The notes below the pieces were generated by a model, which saw nothing but the letters and a program-made list of their open reading frames with translations, searched no databases and was not told where the DNA came from. From a virus, in IMG/VR virus record IMGVR_UViG_3300045971_000277, positions 1 to 64,000 of that record: 64,000 bases of DNA, one strand, 5' to 3'. How positions within the stretch are numbered: the first letter of the stretch is position 1; the number at the start of each line of letters is the position of its first letter. Made by a program: the position numbers and the translations under genes. Below are positions 24,888 to 37,495 of the stretch, one piece after another.

Positions 24888-25010
24888 ATGGGTTTTCATA
24901 AAACTGGACTTGCCACATCGTTAGGTATCGTAGAGCAGCCTAAGCAGGCTGAGAAGCCACCGGAGTCAGTTGAAAAGCCCCAACCGAAGCAAGCACAGCC
25001 GGTTAAATAA
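24888..25010 (+). CDS. 40-aa Pro/Gln/Lys-rich small protein
   Basis: A short protein, MGFHKTGLATSLGIVEQPK followed by a Pro/Lys/Gln/Glu tail. GAGG lies 4 bases before the ATG, and its stop overlaps the protease start as TAATG, which supports real translation. No family recognised. Its place between portal and protease suggests a head-assembly helper. Confidence 0.6.
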   Translation: MGFHKTGLATSLGIVEQPKQAEKPPESVEKPQPKQAQPVK

Positions 25011-28000
25011 TGAGTTTCGTCAGGTACGCTAAGATACAAGTACTAGCCTCATGGGAAGTCGATCAAGACGGCCATAGCAGAATCGCGCACGCGAATGTAA
25101 CGGCAGCGGAAGCCCCGCTGCCGTCGTTCTATGCGAATCCTGGCAACCCCGGTACGTTGGATGTCAAAGAAGCCCTAGCGAAGGTTTCGAAGCAATATGA
25201 TATCAGTGCTGACCCGCGTGAATACATTTTTGAAGCGGTACGAGCCGTCACCGCAGGCGTATCTAATGAGAATGGCGACGCTTTTCATCGTGACGAACTT
25301 CTTCGTTTCGATCATCGCCTTGGCTGCGCAGTTTATCAGACTTTTATCCTAAAGCCACACCACGTTAATCACCGCGCCGAGAATCCTAAGACGGCCCGTG
25401 GCGTTATCCTAGATTCACACTACAACGACACCGCGCCTGCCTTAGAGATGTGCCCAAAGGAAGGTTGCGGCAATCGTACAGCAGAGCGTGAAGGCCGTGA
25501 CCGTACCGGCATCTACTGTAAGGCTTGCGGCACCACGGTCAAGGATGAATTCGTTGAGGTCCTGTTGGCCGTCAATGCATCGAAGGACCCGTCGTTTGCC
25601 GAAGGCGTGCGGACCGGCGTACTGAATGCGACCTCGATGGGCTGCTTTGTCCCAGGCACTCTTGTTACGATGGCAGATGGCAGCCGTAAGGCCATTGAGG
25701 CTGTTGTGCCGGGCGATTTTGTTATCACCCACACTGGCGCGGTGGCTGAGGTAGATGAAACCTCCGAACACGCTTGTGATGACGACATTGTTAGTATTTC
25801 TGTTGCGGGTGTGCAGGCCGACATCGTAGCCACTAATGACCATCCATTCTGGGTTGTAGATCGCGACACCAACTCTGGCAAGTGGGTGCACGCGTGTGAA
25901 GTTAAGCAGGGTGACTACTTACTTAGCCCGAAGCGCGACACTAAGCCAGTTGAAATAGACATTAAGTTAGCACGCCTAGCAGGGTATTTTGCTGCAGAAG
26001 GTAACTTTATTAGAGCTTACGATGGTCCGCTATCTGGCGAGCGAGTTGGGGTTGAGTTCTCTCTGAATGCGACAGAAACATGCTATTTAGATGAGATCCA
26101 AAAACTATTGATAGATCTTGGCGCCGATCCAAAGCGCTACGTGCGGGCTGACCGTAACATTGGCGTTGTTAAGGCGTATCGTTGCAAGGAGTTAGCTGAT
26201 AAGTTATTGCAACTAGTCGGCGAGCATGCACACAATAAGCATCTGTCCGATGAGATTTACGGTTGGCCTCGCGAAGCCCAGTTAGCATTTGTTGGCGCCA
26301 TCATTAATGGCGATGGTTTTGGCATTCACGAATACGGACATTCATGGACCCAGTTCACGTCTGTGAGCCAAGACCTTTGTGATCAAGTATCTCAGTTATT
26401 GGTTAACCTTAATATCCCACATCGCACTTCTGTTACAGCTAAGCGTTCCGGGTTTGGTTCTGAACGTCCCGTTTATGACCTGCATATAACAGGCGACTAT
26501 CAATTGGAGTTGGCTACTTCTACCGACAAGGTTAAGAAGACCTCTGCCACTGGTAATAAGATGGTTGCCAGTGTTCCATCTGATGCTGGCATTCTTCGTA
26601 AGGTGCGTAAGGTTGAACCAATCCAGTATACCGGAAACGTATATAATTTCGGCGTAAAACACGACGATCACTCTTACGTAGCGGGTGGCATTGCGGTTCA
26701 CAATTGCGTGTGCGACTCCACCACATGCAACGTGTGCGACCACGTCGCCTATAACAAGAGCGAGTTCTGCACTCACATCCGTGCAGGCAACAAGAAGAAG
26801 ACATTCAAGACGGCGGCAGGCGAGCGTGTCGCGTTTGAGTGGTGCAATAACGTCGTGTTTACCGAGCTAAGCCGGGTTGACCAGCCAGCTGACCCGACCG
26901 CACTACAGCAGGAGATTCTCGAGTTCACGGCGAAGATTGAACAAGAATCGACGAAGCCAGAAGCGCTCCGGAATGAGACTGAGCTACTCATCCTGTCGAA
27001 ACGCCTAGCCGACCTCAACGTTAGGGTGGCACAGATGCAGAAAGTGCCTGCCCCGCAACAGACCGACGCTCCCGCGCCGGGTCCAAAAGAGAACGCAGAG
27101 CTACCACAAGATAAACCGGACCAGTCAGCTAAGGTGCCGATACAGGAATTTGCTGACGGTAAAGAAGAGAAAGAGAAGAACGAAGAGGCACCCAGCCTTG
27201 CCGCAGTTGGCATCGATCCGGAGTCGATCGGTGCAGGTCACATCGCCGGACTTTCGGATCAATATTTAGCAGAACTAGACGCAGCAGCCAATCACGTGGC
27301 AACCAAGCCCGAGGGAGTTATAATGTCACAGTTTAAGTTCAAGACAGCATATAAGGATATGCGCCTGCAGGTAACTAAGCAGGGTAACTATCGGGTCTTT
27401 AACGATGCCGGTACCGTTTTCGTCGTCCGTCCGGAGCCGAAGGTGGCGGTGGCGGATCGCAAGGAGTTCGGCATCGGCATCATGCGTGACATTGCTGATA
27501 CCGGCATCGTCGCGACTGCCAAGAAGTACAGCGTGGCCTTCGGCCCGCGTACTGCTAGCGTCCTAGAGCATCACCTCGAGGATTTCGAGAAGGGCCGCGA
27601 CGAGGGCGACACCAAGCCTGCTACGGCTGACGGCATGCGTGATCACGCCGACAGCGAGCACGGCACGCCTAAGAAGAAGATGACGGAAGGCGTTGAGCGC
27701 GACCACGCTGAAAGCGAGCACGGCAAGCCGAAGCAGACCGTGACGGAAGACCACGTTGAGGATATCGAGGATGGCCGCAAAGAGGCCCCGGATACCGCCG
27801 TGGGTGAAGAGAACACGGTCAACAAGGACAAGCACCCGAAGAAGACAGTCAAGGACAACGTGCTGGACGACGCTGTCGTGGACCATGCTGAGGGCAAGAA
27901 CAAGAAGAAGGCTCAGGCGGATGAGAAGTCCAAGCCGTCCAAGTCTACGTCCAAGCCGTCTACGTCCAAGCCGTCTACGTCCAAGCCGTCGAAGAAGGAT

Positions 28001-29374
28001 GAGGCATCTAAGCCAGCCAGCAAGGGTGCGGCTCCCAAGGAGTCTGCCCCGCCTGCGGCCAATGAGCCGTTCGGCGGCGCGACTGACATCAGCGACGACG
28101 AGCTTGACTCGGCCTTCGACTCGGCCACCACGTCGCCGGGCGAGCAGGAAGGCACTGCGACCGCAATCCGCCTCTGGACCGCTAACAAGACCGTCATTGC
28201 CGACCTTGGCAAGCAGATCGAGTCGCTCAAGGCTGTCAACACTGGTCTGATGGTAGACCAGATTGCACCAGTTCTACGTGATATCGCGTCTAAGTCGATG
28301 GAAGTTGATGGCGTCGTGCACAAGCTGTCTGAGTGGACTCAGGGCTCGACTTCGTACGGCAAGGTGTTTGAGCAGCTAAACGCCCAGCTGTCCACCGAGC
28401 TACAGGCCGTTGCGGCTGCGCTGAAGGAGCAGAACACCACGCAGGTAGTCCGCCAGGAACTGAAGCCGGGTAAGCTGGCACAGCTTGAGGGTCGTAAGCT
28501 TGAGGTGGCTCTCGCGGCTGTCTCGGCTACCCTCGATAAGATGCTACAGATGGGCCAGGGCCAGGGTGACGTTGGTATGCCGCTGGCGGCCAAGAAGGAT
28601 GGCAAGCCGTGGTACGAGAAGTTCAACAAGAATGAATCTGGCAGCAAGTCGGCTAGCAAGTCCAAGTCCGCTAGCAAGGGGGCCTCAGTGGAAAAGACCG
28701 CGATGGATAAGGAATGCAGCCGTCACGGTAAGGCTTGCTCGTCTAAGGGTGCGAAGACCGCCGGGATGGAAGTCACGGCGGCCAGCAAGAAGTACGAGTC
28801 CCGTCTAGACCGCGTCTACAAGCGTCGGTTTGCGCAGCTTGAGTCGGAGAAGAACAAGAAGGTGGCGGAGGTTGAGGTTGATGTGGCTGGCAAGTTTAAG
28901 CGTGCGCTTAAGCTGGTCGCGTCCCGTCAGCGTCTAAATCTCGAGACCTCACCGATCAAGGCGGCGTTCGCTGACACCCTACTGACTCCAATGGACTTGG
29001 GCGGTGACGATTACTACCCCGGCATGGACGAGCAGCTTGCAGTGTCGCTGATCGAGCGCGCAGCAGCTGAGGGTCTCGAAGAGTTCGTCGAGAAGACCAT
29101 CGAGCGTGCTGCCGAAGTCATGAAGCTGTCCGAGGACGCGTTCAACGCACTGGAGGCCGATATCAAGAATCTACAGACGATGGCTCCTCCGGTGTCGCGT
29201 AAGGCTGCAACTGGCCACGATGGCAGCAACGTGCGTCGTGCCGCTGCTCAGGGTAATCTTCAGATTGCACCGTCATCCGTAGAAACCGCACCGACCGCTG
29301 ATGGTCGGCACAATCGCACAGAGCTTCGTACCGCATTAAATAACACCAAGATCAACCGCCAACGGGGTATATAG
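25010..29374 (+). CDS. prohead protease precursor with intein, fused to scaffold
   Basis: A 1454-aa precursor (1100 aa after splicing). The N-terminal protease domain joins residues 65-211 to residues 566 onward: NENGDAFHRDEL, a His-rich KPHHVNHRAENPKTARGVI (candidate catalytic His), a four-Cys zinc site (148, 153, 170, 173) and VLNATSMG (candidate catalytic Ser209). After the intein, CVCDSTTCNVC...FCTHI continues the domain. The pattern (HVNH, ARGVI, a xSMG-C junction) is that of phage capsid maturation proteases, though the exact peptidase family is not settled by eye. From about residue 640 the protein becomes a charged scaffold-like region with Lys/Glu repeats and a Ser/Lys/Pro tract. Lies directly after portal. 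Confidence 0.8.
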   Translation: MSFVRYAKIQVLASWEVDQDGHSRIAHANVTAAEAPLPSFYANPGNPGTLDVKEALAKVSKQYDISADPREYIFEAVRAVTAGVSNENGDAFHRDELLRFDHRLGCAVYQTFILKPHHVNHRAENPKTARGVILDSHYNDTAPALEMCPKEGCGNRTAEREGRDRTGIYCKACGTTVKDEFVEVLLAVNASKDPSFAEGVRTGVLNATSMGCFVPGTLVTMADGSRKAIEAVVPGDFVITHTGAVAEVDETSEHACDDDIVSISVAGVQADIVATNDHPFWVVDRDTNSGKWVHACEVKQGDYLLSPKRDTKPVEIDIKLARLAGYFAAEGNFIRAYDGPLSGERVGVEFSLNATETCYLDEIQKLLIDLGADPKRYVRADRNIGVVKAYRCKELADKLLQLVGEHAHNKHLSDEIYGWPREAQLAFVGAIINGDGFGIHEYGHSWTQFTSVSQDLCDQVSQLLVNLNIPHRTSVTAKRSGFGSERPVYDLHITGDYQLELATSTDKVKKTSATGNKMVASVPSDAGILRKVRKVEPIQYTGNVYNFGVKHDDHSYVAGGIAVHNCVCDSTTCNVCDHVAYNKSEFCTHIRAGNKKKTFKTAAGERVAFEWCNNVVFTELSRVDQPADPTALQQEILEFTAKIEQESTKPEALRNETELLILSKRLADLNVRVAQMQKVPAPQQTDAPAPGPKENAELPQDKPDQSAKVPIQEFADGKEEKEKNEEAPSLAAVGIDPESIGAGHIAGLSDQYLAELDAAANHVATKPEGVIMSQFKFKTAYKDMRLQVTKQGNYRVFNDAGTVFVVRPEPKVAVADRKEFGIGIMRDIADTGIVATAKKYSVAFGPRTASVLEHHLEDFEKGRDEGDTKPATADGMRDHADSEHGTPKKKMTEGVERDHAESEHGKPKQTVTEDHVEDIEDGRKEAPDTAVGEENTVNKDKHPKKTVKDNVLDDAVVDHAEGKNKKKAQADEKSKPSKSTSKPSTSKPSTSKPSKKDEASKPASKGAAPKESAPPAANEPFGGATDISDDELDSAFDSATTSPGEQEGTATAIRLWTANKTVIADLGKQIESLKAVNTGLMVDQIAPVLRDIASKSMEVDGVVHKLSEWTQGSTSYGKVFEQLNAQLSTELQAVAAALKEQNTTQVVRQELKPGKLAQLEGRKLEVALAAVSATLDKMLQMGQGQGDVGMPLAAKKDGKPWYEKFNKNESGSKSASKSKSASKGASVEKTAMDKECSRHGKACSSKGAKTAGMEVTAASKKYESRLDRVYKRRFAQLESEKNKKVAEVEVDVAGKFKRALKLVASRQRLNLETSPIKAAFADTLLTPMDLGGDDYYPGMDEQLAVSLIERAAAEGLEEFVEKTIERAAEVMKLSEDAFNALEADIKNLQTMAPPVSRKAATGHDGSNVRRAAAQGNLQIAPSSVETAPTADGRHNRTELRTALNNTKINRQRGI
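25643..26704 (+). mobile_element. LAGLIDADG intein in prohead protease gene
   Basis: Residues 212-565 of the precursor. Block A starts CFVPGTLVTMADGS. Block B has TNDHPFW (about 275-281). LAGLIDADG helices are RLAGYFAAEGN (about 322-332) and LAFVGAIINGDG (about 425-436). Block F reads VYNFGVKHDDHSYVAG and block G ends GIAVHN before Cys+1, so the His-Asn pair is standard. Insertion lies three residues after the presumed catalytic Ser. It shares only the general fold with the portal intein, with little close identity by eye, so the two were probably acquired separately. Confidence 0.93.
27323..29374 (+). CDS. nested in-frame scaffold protein (internal start)
   Basis: An in-frame ATG at codon 772 of the protease ORF is preceded by GAGGGAG at 5-base spacing, the best ribosome site in the ORF interior. 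It would give a 683-aa protein beginning MSQFKFKTAYKDMRLQV, covering a small globular N-terminus, acidic/His repeats (DHAESEHGKPK type), a Ser/Lys/Pro tract, and helical segments to the end. Lambda C/Nu3 and other phages make scaffold from the protease gene in just this way. I infer that both fused and free forms are made. Confidence 0.65.
   Translation: MSQFKFKTAYKDMRLQVTKQGNYRVFNDAGTVFVVRPEPKVAVADRKEFGIGIMRDIADTGIVATAKKYSVAFGPRTASVLEHHLEDFEKGRDEGDTKPATADGMRDHADSEHGTPKKKMTEGVERDHAESEHGKPKQTVTEDHVEDIEDGRKEAPDTAVGEENTVNKDKHPKKTVKDNVLDDAVVDHAEGKNKKKAQADEKSKPSKSTSKPSTSKPSTSKPSKKDEASKPASKGAAPKESAPPAANEPFGGATDISDDELDSAFDSATTSPGEQEGTATAIRLWTANKTVIADLGKQIESLKAVNTGLMVDQIAPVLRDIASKSMEVDGVVHKLSEWTQGSTSYGKVFEQLNAQLSTELQAVAAALKEQNTTQVVRQELKPGKLAQLEGRKLEVALAAVSATLDKMLQMGQGQGDVGMPLAAKKDGKPWYEKFNKNESGSKSASKSKSASKGASVEKTAMDKECSRHGKACSSKGAKTAGMEVTAASKKYESRLDRVYKRRFAQLESEKNKKVAEVEVDVAGKFKRALKLVASRQRLNLETSPIKAAFADTLLTPMDLGGDDYYPGMDEQLAVSLIERAAAEGLEEFVEKTIERAAEVMKLSEDAFNALEADIKNLQTMAPPVSRKAATGHDGSNVRRAAAQGNLQIAPSSVETAPTADGRHNRTELRTALNNTKINRQRGI
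27944..27988 (+). repeat. 15-bp tandem repeat in scaffold
   Basis: Three perfect head-to-tail copies of TCTACGTCCAAGCCG encode STSKP repeats in the disordered Ser/Lys/Pro tract of the scaffold. Because the copies are identical, the number may vary between relatives. Confidence 0.85.
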
Positions 29375-30224: not shown

Positions 30225-31442
30225 ATGGCACAGGTACATAACCCATACCGTCAGATCAAGCGCACAGCGTCAGCTGCCGCTCCTGCGGTTGCGCCCGTAA
30301 AGGCGCCAGTCAAGACCCGTTTAGCCAGCAAGGCCGATGAAAGCAATTTCGACGCCACTGGCACTTTCAACCCGCAGGCTTACGGCGGGTTCCGCGAGGA
30401 CATTCAGAGCGCAATTGGCAACAAGCGCGCTAAGATGTTCGATGGCAGCGGCGAACTGAACGCGTACGATAATAAGGACGCGCTGCAACAGATCGCTTAC
30501 CTGCTTAACAACGTCACCAAGAAGGCCTCCCCCGGTACGTTCTACCGTGAGGCTTCCAACATGAAGTCGGATGACCGCCGCAAGGTTCTAGCGGCTGCTC
30601 TAGCTGATCCGACCGGTGAAGGCTTTGCTATCGTTGGCCAGGAGCTTCTGCTCCCGATCAAGGATATCATCGACTACGAGGGCTGGGCACGCAAGATCTT
30701 CCGCGTCCGTCCGCTCGCGCAGGGTGAGTTGTTCCGCATCGCCAAGGACGTTCGTGCGACTGCCTGGACCGTTGGTCAGGATGGTCAATCGATCGAGTCC
30801 CGCGTGTACGGTAAGTACATCACCCCGTCTGAGTTCAAGGTTACCTCGTTCCCCACCGTTGACATCGAAGACATCTATCAGATGAACTTCGACGTCCTCG
30901 ATCGCGCTCAGGACACTGCGCGTCAGGAGATCGAGCTTGAAGAGGATAAGCGCGCTCTTGCCATCATCGACCGCGCCAGCGTCACCGTCAACAGCCCCAC
31001 CATCTTCTCGACTCTCGGCGTGGCTGCTTTCGAAGACATCCGCTATCAGGTTGAGCGCCACCGTCTCGTGGTTGCCAAGTTCCTCATCAACCGTCGCGAG
31101 CTTTCCGACCTCATCAAGACCGCCATCGGTCAGGGTGCAGGTGGGCAGCACGTTGACCCGGTGACCGAGCGCGAGCTAATCCTCGCCGGTTACGTCGGCA
31201 ACGTCCTCAATGCTCAGATCATCACCGCCGCAGGCACTGGCGTGGAAGAGGTTGTTCCGGCCGGTACCGTGTACGCTGCGACCGATTCTGAGTACATGGG
31301 CGAGATGGGCGTCCGCGTTGAACTGTTCTCCGAGCCGTTCAACATGTTCTCTCAACGACGGTTGGTTAAGGGCTGGGCTTTTGGTGAAATCATTGGTTTC
31401 GCCATTCCTAACTCGCGTGCCGTGGCTAAGGGTACCAAATAG
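30225..31442 (+). CDS. major capsid protein
   Basis: A 405-aa protein in the expected place after protease/scaffold, with an optimal ribosome site (AAGGAGATATAACC) and a strong terminator right after the gene, both marks of very high expression. The first about 60 residues are Ala/Pro/Lys-rich and may be removed on maturation. The body has the HK97-fold order: a long helix with YLLNNVTKK, a beta/peripheral domain (ELFRIAKDVRATAWTVGQDG), a spine helix with IELEEDKRALAIIDRA, and a C-terminal strand region (EVVPAGTVYAATDSEYMGEM ... WAFGEIIGFAI). Codon use is markedly optimised (AAG, GAG, CGC, CTC) compared with neighbours. Confidence 0.85.
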   Translation: MAQVHNPYRQIKRTASAAAPAVAPVKAPVKTRLASKADESNFDATGTFNPQAYGGFREDIQSAIGNKRAKMFDGSGELNAYDNKDALQQIAYLLNNVTKKASPGTFYREASNMKSDDRRKVLAAALADPTGEGFAIVGQELLLPIKDIIDYEGWARKIFRVRPLAQGELFRIAKDVRATAWTVGQDGQSIESRVYGKYITPSEFKVTSFPTVDIEDIYQMNFDVLDRAQDTARQEIELEEDKRALAIIDRASVTVNSPTIFSTLGVAAFEDIRYQVERHRLVVAKFLINRRELSDLIKTAIGQGAGGQHVDPVTERELILAGYVGNVLNAQIITAAGTGVEEVVPAGTVYAATDSEYMGEMGVRVELFSEPFNMFSQRRLVKGWAFGEIIGFAIPNSRAVAKGTK

Positions 31443-31470: not shown

Positions 31471-31497
31471 GGACCCCGGGGCGGTTGACCGGGGTCC
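31471..31497 (+). terminator. Rho-independent terminator after capsid gene
   Basis: A perfect 9-bp GC-rich stem (GGACCCCGG / CCGGGGTCC) with a 9-base loop, followed by ATTCTTATAT. It would insulate the capsid operon from the downstream endonuclease gene. Confidence 0.85.
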
Positions 31498-31509
31498 ATT
31501 CTTATATGG

Positions 31510-31538
31510 TTTACGCTGTGAATCGGTGGGCGCATAAT
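31510..31538 (+). promoter_or_regulatory. sigma70-like promoter before endonuclease gene
   Basis: TTTACG and CATAAT are separated by exactly 17 bases, and the ATG of the next gene lies 5 bases after the -10 box. Transcription would start about at the ATG, giving a leaderless or nearly leaderless message. Placed just after the capsid terminator, it makes the mobile gene an independent unit. Confidence 0.5.
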
Positions 31539-31543
31539 AGTGC

Positions 31544-33244
31544 ATGAAAAAGCCGTTCCCGATTACGATAGAGCGATTCTGTCAGTTGCAGGCCGATGGC
31601 GTGTCGATGTCTAAAATGGCGTCCCAGTACGGCATTAGCGTGGCTTGGGTGTCGACATGGGCCAAGCGGAATGGACTAGGCTCAGCTATCAAGCCTACTG
31701 CGAATAAACAAGTAACAAAGGACGCGGTTGAGCAGGCGTGTGCAGAAGGCCTGTCGACACGACAAATGGCAGATAAGTTTGGGATTAGTAAGGCGCTTGT
31801 TAGCGCGAAGCTAAAGCAATATGGAATCAAAACGCAGCACGAGGCGCTATATATGGCAGATGTAACGCCATACAAAGCACCCAAACCACCACAAAACCAG
31901 TACGTGGCGACTGCAGCGACGGATGCTGTGTATTGTGCCGCCATGTCTGAGTCGTCCAAAGCTTTATGGAATACCCCTGAATACCGCGCCCGCATGGGAG
32001 CCGCACAGGCGACGCCAGAATATAAGGCAAAAGTAGGAGAAGCAGCTAAACGTATGTGGGCGGATCAAGCGTTTAAGGCCTATATGGTTGATGTAGTACT
32101 AAAGCCACGTGCGCGTGACCAAGCATTTAAGGTAAAGATGCAAGATATACGTGGTCGACGGCAATACCGCGATACTATATCACGCAATTCTAAGCAGCTA
32201 TGGATGGACCCAGAATTTAGAGCCAAGATGGTTCAGATTTGGATGGATCCGGCATACCGCGAGAAGATGTCGGAGTCATCTAAGAAAGTGTGGGAGCGCG
32301 ACGGTTACGCAGACCAGATGGCAGTTGTCAGGTCGCAAATGCCGCGTGAGTATACAAAGCCACAAATGAAAGTGGTAGATATACTAACCACGTTAGGTAT
32401 TGCACATCATACAGAACATGCAATAGGGCCATACTGCTTTGATATCTATATACCTCAGCACAATATACTGATTGAAGTGCAAGGCACGTATTGGCACGGC
32501 ATCAAAAACGTTGAGCGTAATGATCGGGCTAAATCTACATATATAGAGCAATATAGACCTGAGTTAAAACTACATTACGTATGGGAGCACGATTGTCTAC
32601 AACCAGATAAAGTAATGGAGCAGATTAAATACTGGCTTGGGATAACTGAAATCGAGCTAGTCCAATACGAACTGACCGATGTCGACGTCACTGTATCACA
32701 AGAGTCTAAGTTAATCGATAATTTCTTATATACATGGCATTATCAGCATCACGGACGCCATGGCTTAGACGTAGTTGCAACGAGCAAAGGAGAAACAATA
32801 GCGGTTGCACGTTTCGCCTCGCCGTCGCGACAAGAGATTGCTACGTCGATCGAGTATAAGTTTAGCGAGACGTTAGAGTTAACCCGACTGTGTGTACATC
32901 CAAGGTATCAGAAGAAAAATCTACTAAGCTGGTTTTTGTCTAAGGCGGAGAAGCTGGTCAGACAAGCCCGGCCAGACGTCAAATGCTTGGTGTCGTTTGC
33001 CGACACCAGCTACGGACATACCGGGGCCGTATATAAGGCGTCGAACTGGGGATTGCACGCGACCGTTAAACCTAATTATTTTTACGTGGACTCGACCGGC
33101 TGGGTGATGCATAAGAAGACCCTATGGAACCATTCAAAGAAGATGGGAATGACGGAGACGGAGTACGCGGCTCAATATGGTTATCGTAAGCAGTGGGGGC
33201 GGGAGAAGCTTAAGTTTATTCGTCGGTTAGTTACTACCAAATAG
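31544..33244 (+). CDS. EDxHD/Vsr-like homing endonuclease fused to Mom/GNAT-like domain
   Basis: A 566-aa multi-domain protein. Two helix-turn-helix units occupy about 20-45 and 70-95 (MADKFGISKALVSAKLKQYG). Four or five NUMOD-like repeats of the form SKxLWxxPEYRAKM lie between 135 and 255. A Vsr-like nuclease follows at about 268-365: FDIYIPQHNILIEVQGTYWHG and then WEHD, with acidic and His residues in the EDxHD order. The C-terminal 190 residues resemble the Mom-type acyltransferase fold: ELTRLCVHPRYQKKNLLSWF, then SFADTSYGHTGAVYKASNW and a His-rich end. The nuclease part fits a free-standing homing enzyme next to the capsid gene. The Mom-like part is unusual and may be an inactive DNA-binding relic or an active modifier. 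Confidence 0.8.
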   Translation: MKKPFPITIERFCQLQADGVSMSKMASQYGISVAWVSTWAKRNGLGSAIKPTANKQVTKDAVEQACAEGLSTRQMADKFGISKALVSAKLKQYGIKTQHEALYMADVTPYKAPKPPQNQYVATAATDAVYCAAMSESSKALWNTPEYRARMGAAQATPEYKAKVGEAAKRMWADQAFKAYMVDVVLKPRARDQAFKVKMQDIRGRRQYRDTISRNSKQLWMDPEFRAKMVQIWMDPAYREKMSESSKKVWERDGYADQMAVVRSQMPREYTKPQMKVVDILTTLGIAHHTEHAIGPYCFDIYIPQHNILIEVQGTYWHGIKNVERNDRAKSTYIEQYRPELKLHYVWEHDCLQPDKVMEQIKYWLGITEIELVQYELTDVDVTVSQESKLIDNFLYTWHYQHHGRHGLDVVATSKGETIAVARFASPSRQEIATSIEYKFSETLELTRLCVHPRYQKKNLLSWFLSKAEKLVRQARPDVKCLVSFADTSYGHTGAVYKASNWGLHATVKPNYFYVDSTGWVMHKKTLWNHSKKMGMTETEYAAQYGYRKQWGREKLKFIRRLVTTK

Positions 33245-34032: not shown

Positions 34033-34452
34033 ATGCGAAACATTGACAATCTGACATTTTTCATTTTTGTCGCGTTCTGGCCCGTTTATCTCATATGGGA
34101 GATCGCGCTGTTTGTAATGCGCGGCAAGGGCATGAATGTTGATCTGATTAGCATGGAAGCACGCGATCGTGGATACCAATTCAACACACTAGTCGTGCTT
34201 TGGTTCGCCCTGCCTGTCCATTTCTGGGTTAACTGGTATCGACCAGCTATGCCTAATATGCTGTGGGCCACCATCGTCTTCTGGGTCTTCATCGCCGCCA
34301 CCCTAACATTCGACCTTATCCTACTCAACCGTGGTATTATGTACGACCAGCTGCCACAGGCACTACAGATCTATCGGTGGCCATTAACACAGGCCGTGCT
34401 GGGCGTACTGGCCGCGTATTTCCTGTTTCCCCAGAGAGGCGTGCTACCGTAG
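34033..34452 (+). CDS. four-helix membrane protein
   Basis: A 139-aa protein with hydrophobic segments at about 8-28, 50-67, 74-98 and 117-133, many Trp and Phe. It follows a terminator and a TATAAT placed 5 bases before its ATG, so its message would be nearly leaderless. Its stop overlaps the start of the HNH gene (TAGTG). No family recognised; host-membrane modification such as superinfection exclusion is only a guess. Confidence 0.7.
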   Translation: MRNIDNLTFFIFVAFWPVYLIWEIALFVMRGKGMNVDLISMEARDRGYQFNTLVVLWFALPVHFWVNWYRPAMPNMLWATIVFWVFIAATLTFDLILLNRGIMYDQLPQALQIYRWPLTQAVLGVLAAYFLFPQRGVLP

Positions 34453-35147
34453 TGGAACGTGAAGCTAGGTTGATCATATGTGACGGGTGTGGCGAAGAAA
34501 AGCCGCACGCCGGTAAAGGCCTATGTCGGGGTTGCTACTCCGAAGCCAGTGGTAAGGTGCGCGCAATGGAAGGCGCGTCCCAGCATAAAATTAAGCGGGA
34601 CGTCGACAGTGGGCGTCCACTATGCCGGTGGTGTAAGCAGCCAGTGCCGAGACGCAAGCGGACGTTCTGTGGTGAAGATTGCATCCATGAATGGCGAATC
34701 CGGACGAGTCCACAGTACGTACGGATGAAGGTATTCGAACGCGACGGCGGCGTCTGTCTCAAGTGCGGCATCAGCACGCCCAAGATGGAACTCGTATTAT
34801 CCGACTTATTCTACCATCAGCGTGATGCGTGGGAACTGATGTGGGGCATGCTACATGCGAACGGCTATAGCCAAAATCGCAAGAACGGGCTATGGGACGC
34901 CGACCATATCCAAGCTGTAACGGAGGGCGGAGGCGCATGCGGCCTAGATAACTACCGCACCCTCTGTATCCCATGCCACAAAGATGAGACACGAAAGCTG
35001 CATAAGCGAATGGCGGCGGCCCGCCGCGCCGGTCAAGACCCACACAGCGTCCCGCACGGTGTTGAATGGTCTGCGGATGAAGTTGAGGTAGCTAAGCAAC
35101 GCATGTCAAAAATCGTTGCGGCACTCGGCTCAGGCTATTCCGGTTAA
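34452..35147 (+). CDS. zinc-finger HNH endonuclease (ZRANB3-like HNH)
   Basis: A 231-aa nuclease. The start is the GTG overlapping the membrane protein stop; an upstream extension would run inside that gene. Two Cys clusters occur at the N-terminus (CDGCG...CRGC, then CRWC...CGEDC), followed by an HNH core: VFERDGGVCLKCG, WDADHIQAVTEGGGACGLDN and TLCIPCHKDETRKL. The GGGxCxLDNxxTLCxxCH pattern is that of the HNH found at the C-terminus of SNF2-type ZRANB3-like enzymes. It may be a homing nuclease or a restriction-type enzyme. Intact catalytic His and Asn. Confidence 0.82.
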   Translation: MEREARLIICDGCGEEKPHAGKGLCRGCYSEASGKVRAMEGASQHKIKRDVDSGRPLCRWCKQPVPRRKRTFCGEDCIHEWRIRTSPQYVRMKVFERDGGVCLKCGISTPKMELVLSDLFYHQRDAWELMWGMLHANGYSQNRKNGLWDADHIQAVTEGGGACGLDNYRTLCIPCHKDETRKLHKRMAAARRAGQDPHSVPHGVEWSADEVEVAKQRMSKIVAALGSGYSG

Positions 35148-36565: not shown

Positions 36566-37495
36566 GTGCCCCGGCCAATTTCAGATCAGAACGTCACGGT
36601 TCTTGATGATCAACAAAGATTTCTCGAATATACCCACCCAGCAGTTGCGCGTAAGCTCCTAAAGGAAGGCGCAGCCGTTGTATGGTCCCGTGTACCGTTC
36701 GCTATTAAGTTGACCAGATCAGTCCCGCATCCATCCTATCAACGGAGAGCAGAAATGGAAGTTACAAGCTATACACAGTATTTCCGCGAAGAGAAGGAAA
36801 TCTACGTCCAGAACGTGTCGAACGCACAGGTGTCGGTTGCATTCGAAGTCGCCACCGGACACGTCGAGTCGCTGCTGTTCCCGAACAAGCGTGACCCGCT
36901 TAACCTGACCCAGTACTTCCCATTCGGCGTTATCAAGAACTCCATGGACTTCCGCAAGATGCTGACGCGGCGTCCGGCGGCGCTCACGCTGCTGAGCGAG
37001 GCTGAGTATCAGGCGTTCTATTCGAATAAGGCGAAGGAAGAGGGGCTATTCGTCAAGGACGGCAAGAAGCAGGTGCCGGACGTCGAGGCCGCTATCAATC
37101 TGGCAGAAGAGGAGCGTCGGGCGTACCAGAATAAGGCCCCACTGCCCAATGCCCGTCCGTCTGAGCCCCTCCATGACGTGGTCCAGGATGACCCGCACTT
37201 CGGTGGCAAGAAGGAAGTCCGGGCGCACGAGCAGCTGCAGGTTGAGGACGTCGTCAACCCCCGCATCCTTCACCTCTGCAATCAGGTTAAGTCCGAACTG
37301 ACTGATCAGGAGAAGATGTCGGCGAATGAGCTACTGGGTGAGCTTAAGTCGCTCCGTGCCGACCTCAAGATGGATGACTTCGAATACATCAGGGCTCATG
37401 GCTGGTACCAGTCGGTCAAGAAGTGGGCTAAGGCCGCCATGGCCGATGTAGCCGAAAAGGAAGGCGTGGACGACGTAGCTGACTCCCGCCTATAG
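36566..37495 (+). CDS. virion-associated protein with YTHPAVARKLL motif
   Basis: A 309-aa protein starting at GTG. Residues 20-45 (YTHPAVARKLLKEGAAVVWS followed by RVPFAIKL) match a short module common in phage structural proteins. From about 64 (MEVTSYTQYFREEKEIYVQN) a second, larger domain begins with VESLLFPNKRDPLNLTQ; this Met is an alternative start. The middle is Pro/Asp-rich and the last 80 residues helical. The two parts may be two products or one; no ATG opens the frame upstream because a TGA lies directly before the GTG. Confidence 0.72.
   Translation: MPRPISDQNVTVLDDQQRFLEYTHPAVARKLLKEGAAVVWSRVPFAIKLTRSVPHPSYQRRAEMEVTSYTQYFREEKEIYVQNVSNAQVSVAFEVATGHVESLLFPNKRDPLNLTQYFPFGVIKNSMDFRKMLTRRPAALTLLSEAEYQAFYSNKAKEEGLFVKDGKKQVPDVEAAINLAEEERRAYQNKAPLPNARPSEPLHDVVQDDPHFGGKKEVRAHEQLQVEDVVNPRILHLCNQVKSELTDQEKMSANELLGELKSLRADLKMDDFEYIRAHGWYQSVKKWAKAAMADVAEKEGVDDVADSRL

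Follow-up and report, generated by a model that had tools for sequence, protein, structure and literature searches.

A gene located behind the capsid gene of a virus encodes a nuclease and a Mom-type acyltransferase in a single polypeptide. This raises the question of whether such a gene is a homing element equipped with its own DNA-modifying enzyme, a restriction-modification system, or a protein in which one of the two catalytic parts has lost or changed its role. The gene lies in a stretch of 64,000 nucleotides (the window), which forms positions 1 to 64,000 of the virus record IMGVR_UViG_3300045971_000277 (101,896 bases). A domain search found it to be the single gene of the Mom family in the whole record. 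The open reading frame starts with ATG, and its coordinates are exact (Table 1).

Domain layout of the fusion protein

Table 1. The fusion gene, its domains and the two flanking genes used in the locus comparison (window numbering).
Feature	Position	Strand	Layout or evidence
Whole fusion gene	31544..33244	+	HTH - HTH - helical repeats - Vsr/I-Bth0305I-type nuclease - Mom acyltransferase, 566 aa
First helix-turn-helix unit, aa 9-42	31568..31669	+	AlphaFold2 helices 9-17, 22-29, 33-42; HTH_23 below cut-off
Second helix-turn-helix unit, aa 59-93	31718..31822	+	AlphaFold2 helices 59-67, 72-79, 83-93; HTH_50 below cut-off
Region of five W-led helical repeats, aa 124-262	31913..32329	+	AlphaFold2 model; no NUMOD family at E ≤ 1
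Nuclease domain, aa 264-372	32333..32659	+	3r3p profile match; residues D300, E311, H318, D327, Q274
Mom-type GNAT domain, aa 377-562	32672..33229	+	Pfam, PHROG, fold, profile, residues
Major head (capsid) protein	30225..31442	+	phrog_2522, E 2.6e-56; 29 relatives compared
Core gene, directly after the capsid gene in 12 insert-free relatives	36566..37495	+	Locus comparison

The AlphaFold2 model of the protein, built from 40 relatives, has a mean pLDDT of 86.5, with values mostly above 90 in both C-terminal domains, and the domain identity of both catalytic parts is close to certain. The original prediction, made from the sequence alone, placed two helix-turn-helix units at the N-terminus. Two three-helix units are indeed present there in the model, the Pfam HTH models remaining under their cut-offs. 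The NUMOD-like repeats proposed for the middle of the protein did not hold up, as no NUMOD family matched at E ≤ 1 in Pfam; the region consists of W-led helical repeats and probably forms an extended DNA-binding arm. Matches to GerD were put down to a chance resemblance between helical repeats. A 1272-aa relative (L075, 2450-6268) has a greatly enlarged repeat region ahead of its nuclease and Mom parts.

The nuclease domain matches that of I-Bth0305I (PDB 3r3p; phmmer E 1.1e-4, PDB profile search E 6.5e-12) and the PADLOC model 'HEase' (E 7.1e-12), while the match to Pfam Vsr is weak (20.2 bits, cut-off 27). The fold-alignment rows of the window protein span aa 376-566 only, and its nuclease was therefore judged by sequence. 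In the predicted model of a Hef-type relative the nuclease was recognised by fold (3r3p Z 11.1, Vsr 1cw0 Z 11.2). An EDxHD nuclease had been expected in the centre of the protein; the nuclease is there, and so are the D, H and D of the motif, but the first E is replaced by Q274, so that it reads Q-D-x-H-D.

Residue conservation was counted in 74 non-redundant fusion proteins, out of 90 having both domains and an acyltransferase match of E<1e-10 (among them the window protein, and two truncated at contig ends). D300 and H318 occur in 74/74, E311 in 73/74 and D327 in 59/74, with conservation at E311-H318 and in the stretch from H523 inflated because the patterns used to scan for relatives came from there. 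Column 274 most often holds Q (Q 32, E 29, H 7), and for this reason Q274 looks like a trait of the subfamily and not like decay. The substitution could still be taken to mean that the nuclease is dead or weak and that the gene persists because its product masks DNA, either at chosen targets or in general, a role for which stand-alone Mom proteins, common in phages, would be a precedent (short Mom-like genes make up most of the 208 matched records listed). Such a reading sits poorly with the complete retention of D300 and H318 and with the frequency of Q at position 274, and we consider it very improbable.

The C-terminal Mom-type domain of the original prediction was recovered by sequence, profile and fold comparisons. 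Pfam Mom (PF25680) matches aa 395-543 with E 4.5e-20 (72.6 bits, cut-off 27.1), and PHROG 1384, 'Mom-like DNA modification protein', matches aa 371-544 with E 1.2e-26. The Mom protein of phage Mu (PDB 8bv8) is found by phmmer (E 1.9e-4) and in a PDB profile search (E 4e-9), in which I-Bth0305I and Mu Mom were matched side by side. The predicted C-terminal fold is that of a GNAT and is closest to Mu Mom (Z 17.9, rmsd 3.6, 180 residues), the next GNAT following at Z 14.4 and others lower. A C-terminal domain without a GNAT fold would have refuted the original prediction, and this was not seen.

Seven positions, H399, Y400, E445, R448, S462, D487 and Y497, align with H58, Y59, E108, R111, S124, D149 and Y159 of Mu Mom (241-aa numbering), and all seven are identical in the two proteins. 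Several of these are reportedly essential in Mu Mom. The PDB title of 8bv8 is 'inactive mutant S124A', and S124 aligns with S462. Among the 74 fusion proteins H399 and R448 are kept in 74/74, Y497 in 72/74, E445 and D487 in 69/74 each, and S462 in 65/74. Judged from these residues, the Mom part is probably an active DNA acyltransferase.

Fused relatives and the link to Hef

The scan that supplied most of the relatives used patterns taken from E311-H318 and from H523 onwards, and took in 80 of 272 confirmed places, corresponding to 78 distinct loci. Within the examined loci 110 ORFs match either domain model, near-copies included. Both domains are present in 91 of them, 13 have the nuclease only (12 complete, about 8 distinct) and six the acyltransferase only, five of the latter being interrupted by a contig end. 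Whether relatives keep the nuclease and Mom residues together had been suggested as a check, and they do: D300, H318, H399 and R448 are all kept in 74/74. Furthermore, pairwise distances in the nuclease and Mom parts of 40 window-type proteins have a rank correlation of 0.75, a value reached in 0 of 2000 permutations. Among the same proteins the Mom parts share a mean pairwise identity of 43%, the nucleases one of 39% and the N-terminal 250 residues one of 21%. The correlated distances together with this contrast in identity indicate that both catalytic parts are passed on as a unit and kept under selection, the DNA-binding end being the part that varies. The fusion is old and common, and no chance joining.

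A tree of 81 Mom domains (44 window-type, 27 Hef-type and 10 stand-alone) places each group on one side of a branch, with support of 96/91, 100/99 and 99/98, respectively. The window Mom domain groups with the 43 other window-type rows, outside the Hef-type clade. Since the tree is unrooted, it is compatible with a single fusion event as well as with two. In phages, relatives have been annotated as 'Hef-like homing endonuclease' or 'putative nuclease/acetyltransferase protein'. Contigs binned to Lokiarchaeota MAGs (L162-L165), which are likely viral, hold four fusions of the window type and two more that are Hef-like.

A match to PHROG 3339, 'homing endonuclease', covers aa 59-558 of the window protein (E 3.5e-23). 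This family is Hef, and is matched at about 1e-150 by the Hef-like proteins that sit between nrdA and nrdB in Acinetobacter phage Acj9 and in the T4-like Salmonella phage SG1. The nrdA-nrdB interval of T4-like phages is the same place as that of Hef in phage U5; the U5 endonuclease is reported to cleave nrdB, a target common to mobE (review PMC2988022). A nuclease model built from window-type sequences only finds phiP4-3 (3e-7), SG1 (1.3e-6), Acj9 (3.9e-5) and, weakly, Abraxas (0.0048). The corresponding Mom model finds the L035 fusion described below (2e-13), Mu Mom (5.7e-11), phiP4-3 (1.6e-4) and Abraxas (6.9e-4), with no match in SG1 or Acj9, whose Mom part was reached only via a model including phiP4-3 and Abraxas. 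In another Hef-like relative (L039) neither the nuclease nor the Mom part was matched by these window-type-only models.

The predicted model of a Hef-type protein folds as a Vsr-like nuclease followed by a GNAT domain, for which Mu Mom (Z 12.5) is tied with other GNATs. In Hef-type proteins Y400 is not kept, and position 487 is N in some of them. Such changes would fit a Mom domain that has been re-used without modifying DNA, either for DNA binding or dimerisation or to acylate a protein, as would a Hef-type fold no closer to Mom than to other GNATs. For the window protein we regard this as improbable. In its own subfamily (A2, 40 sequences) H399, Y400, R448, D487 and Y497 are invariant and identical to those of Mu Mom, and conservation is higher in the Mom part than in the nuclease. 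The preferred reading of the C-terminal domain is still that of a DNA acyltransferase.

The site behind the capsid gene

The site behind the capsid gene was compared in 29 contigs, seven of which end at the capsid gene, so that 22 are informative. In 12 of these the capsid gene leads straight into a homologue of the gene at 36566-37495, and the two matches are 125-229 bp apart; the window has 5.1 kb between these genes. A Vsr-type nuclease ORF, or its start, is located behind the capsid gene in six: L014 (the same virus as the window), L015 (N-terminal part only, the contig ending before the nuclease), L020 (a window-type fusion, Mom part 59% identical), L029 (a nuclease of the same kind by a weak match, E 1.2e-5, without Mom), L035 and the Hef-like L039. 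Other genes occupy the site in the remaining four. The ORF of L035 (7330-8748), at this site too, begins with the HTH part seen in the window protein, but its middle is a DUF4379 zinc finger and its Mom part is of the Hef type, which makes it a module swap. The site is empty in Rctr197k, the nearest named phage. A near-identical phage without the fusion gene was not found among the contigs compared, and the empty sites belong to relatives with 46-78% capsid-protein identity.

Copies elsewhere also adjoin conserved genes. The relative in Abraxas is adjacent to gp23, the copy in L006 lies between the terminase and portal genes, and those in L007 and L008 are found beside pieces of a DnaE-type polymerase gene. 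Across 12 selected records, the number of genes reaching into the acyltransferase part ranged from 1 to 10 per record. The fusion gene has a GC content of 47.6%, and its nuclease part 40%, compared with 54-60% in the five neighbouring genes measured.

Because of the polymorphic capsid-adjacent site, the GC-poor composition, the copies beside conserved genes and the copy numbers, homing is supported, and we consider it highly likely that the fusion gene is a homing gene. The original prediction of a mobile gene thus agrees with the variable occupation of this site. The 3' part of the capsid gene is the likely homing target.

How the gene is carried was also considered. An intron-borne gene was rejected, as there is no Rfam match in the window and the gene forms an ORF of its own, downstream of the capsid stop codon. 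A search of the Rfam type for group I introns gave no match at the gathering threshold in 34 loci, only tRNAs being found, and nothing useful was obtained at a relaxed threshold in L007 and L008. An intein-borne gene was likewise rejected, no intein being found in ORF 31544-33244. An own promoter or terminator is not proposed: one promoter-like site (31510-31538) lies upstream, and the three sites of the region equal the mean of shuffled sequences (3.0).

Several other features of these loci were recorded. In the 101-base gap between the capsid and fusion genes a perfect 9-bp inverted repeat (GGACCCCGG ... CCGGGGTCC, 31471-31497) was seen by eye, which was not listed by the promoter/terminator scan and may be the terminator of the capsid gene. 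About 2 kb upstream of the fusion gene, a 1454-aa ORF (25010-29374, + strand) with an intein-like Hint region and a LAGLIDADG_3 domain represents a second homing element. An HNH endonuclease ORF (34263-35147, + strand) is located in the same variable stretch between the capsid gene and 36566; its start is set at a GTG that overlaps another ORF, perhaps too far upstream. In the phages L007 (3947-5782) and L008 (3839-5728) the fusion gene comes immediately after the first of two pieces of a DnaE-type polymerase. These break at the same profile position (98), by eye next to the PDIDxD motif, and the first piece in L008 also has a weak intein match.

The pattern of sites bears directly on a restriction-modification weapon as an explanation. 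The Mom domain would then mark the whole phage genome and the nuclease would destroy unmarked DNA of the host or of a superinfecting phage, homing being incidental. This was predicted for Mom domains fused to REase-fold nucleases by Iyer et al. 2021 (PMC7824862), and is in line with the conserved residues of the nuclease and of Mom. In Synechococcus phage DSL-LC03 (L160, 309-1479) there is an overlap between a stand-alone Mom gene and an annotated type II restriction endonuclease gene, but that nuclease gave no match to, and falls outside, the nuclease family of the window protein. Typical of homing genes, on the other hand, are a polymorphic insertion such as that behind the capsid gene, a location beside conserved genes, as in other copies, and a multiplicity that reaches 10 diverged copies per record here. 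The N-terminal region is far more variable than either catalytic part, as for changing targets, and Mom-free relatives exist. Restriction-modification as the main role is therefore unlikely. The site pattern and the copy numbers speak more for homing, and a dual role is possible.

A proposed homing endonuclease with its own acyltransferase

We propose, with a probability of roughly 0.6 for the mechanism as a whole, that the gene encodes a free-standing homing endonuclease behind the capsid gene, carrying a working Mom acyltransferase that protects the carrier. The HTH units and helical repeats would recognise an extended target, within the capsid gene or adjoining it, in a co-infecting phage without the insert. 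As its fold and residues suggest, the Vsr/I-Bth0305I-type domain would cut this target, and repair from the carrier would copy the gene across, consistent with the presence of both empty and filled sites. The C-terminal domain, with its unchanged residues, would modify adenines as a working acyltransferase, and its most likely substrate would be phage DNA to which the same DNA-binding arm is bound. Carrier and converted progeny may then resist their own nuclease, and perhaps host restriction; this is the weakest step.

Protection against the partner nuclease can be suggested only tentatively. Related nucleases without Mom (the 13 ORFs mentioned above), and another at the same site (L029), count against an obligatory antidote, and their existence shows that a nuclease of this type can do without Mom. 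Q274 in place of the first E of EDxHD, and the presence of only one such gene in the record, count against the proposed mechanism. A wider speculation, which we hold to be rather doubtful, is that Hef-like and window-type proteins form one large class of homing endonucleases with their own DNA-masking enzyme. In such a single-chain cut-and-mask element the same arm would direct the nuclease to unmarked alleles and the acyltransferase to marked ones, and up to ten copies could be tolerated per phage.

The fusion itself is already in print, and the window protein is a further example: Mom-REase fusions of jumbo phages were predicted by Iyer et al. 2021 (PMC7824862), who read them as restriction-modification and noted five momylating enzymes in the genome of PA5oct. 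The word 'homing' is absent from the main text of that study. The part of PMC5219037 covered here raises the question of an effect of HNH homing nucleases on DNA resistance and states that no Mom enzyme was found; the part of PMC11990801 covered held nothing relevant to the Hef/Mom question. In the open-licence literature searched we found no paper that connects Mom with Hef or with homing endonucleases. The link between Hef and Mom is the under-noticed part of the finding. In these searches, one protein class appears in two unjoined literatures, as Hef homing endonucleases in that on T4 phages and as Mom restriction-modification fusions in that on jumbo phages. If the Mom part works, homing endonucleases can mark self versus non-self DNA, and the tolerance of multi-copy homing nucleases becomes directly testable. 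A variable DNA-binding arm coupled to an adenine acyltransferase could also serve as a useful reagent.

Compared with known systems, the window protein shares its nuclease domain with I-Bth0305I, whose 3r3p chain, a catalytic-domain construct, is without a Mom domain and has E at the position of Q274. With Mu Mom and the stand-alone phage Mom proteins it shares the GNAT fold and the seven identical residues. The stand-alone forms are separate proteins of 154-241 aa (ten examined) that lie to one side of a branch of the tree, apart from the fused ones. The Mom-REase fusions of jumbo phages have the same domain pair and likewise occur several per genome, but have been read as restriction-modification, whereas homing is favoured for the window gene. 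Hef and Hef-like proteins share the order of nuclease and Mom-like domain and the long profile match, and their genes too are free-standing and adjoin conserved genes. They differ in their N-terminal DNA-binding parts and in their insertion site, and the window protein retains Y400 and D487, which are altered in the Hef proteins of T4-like phages.
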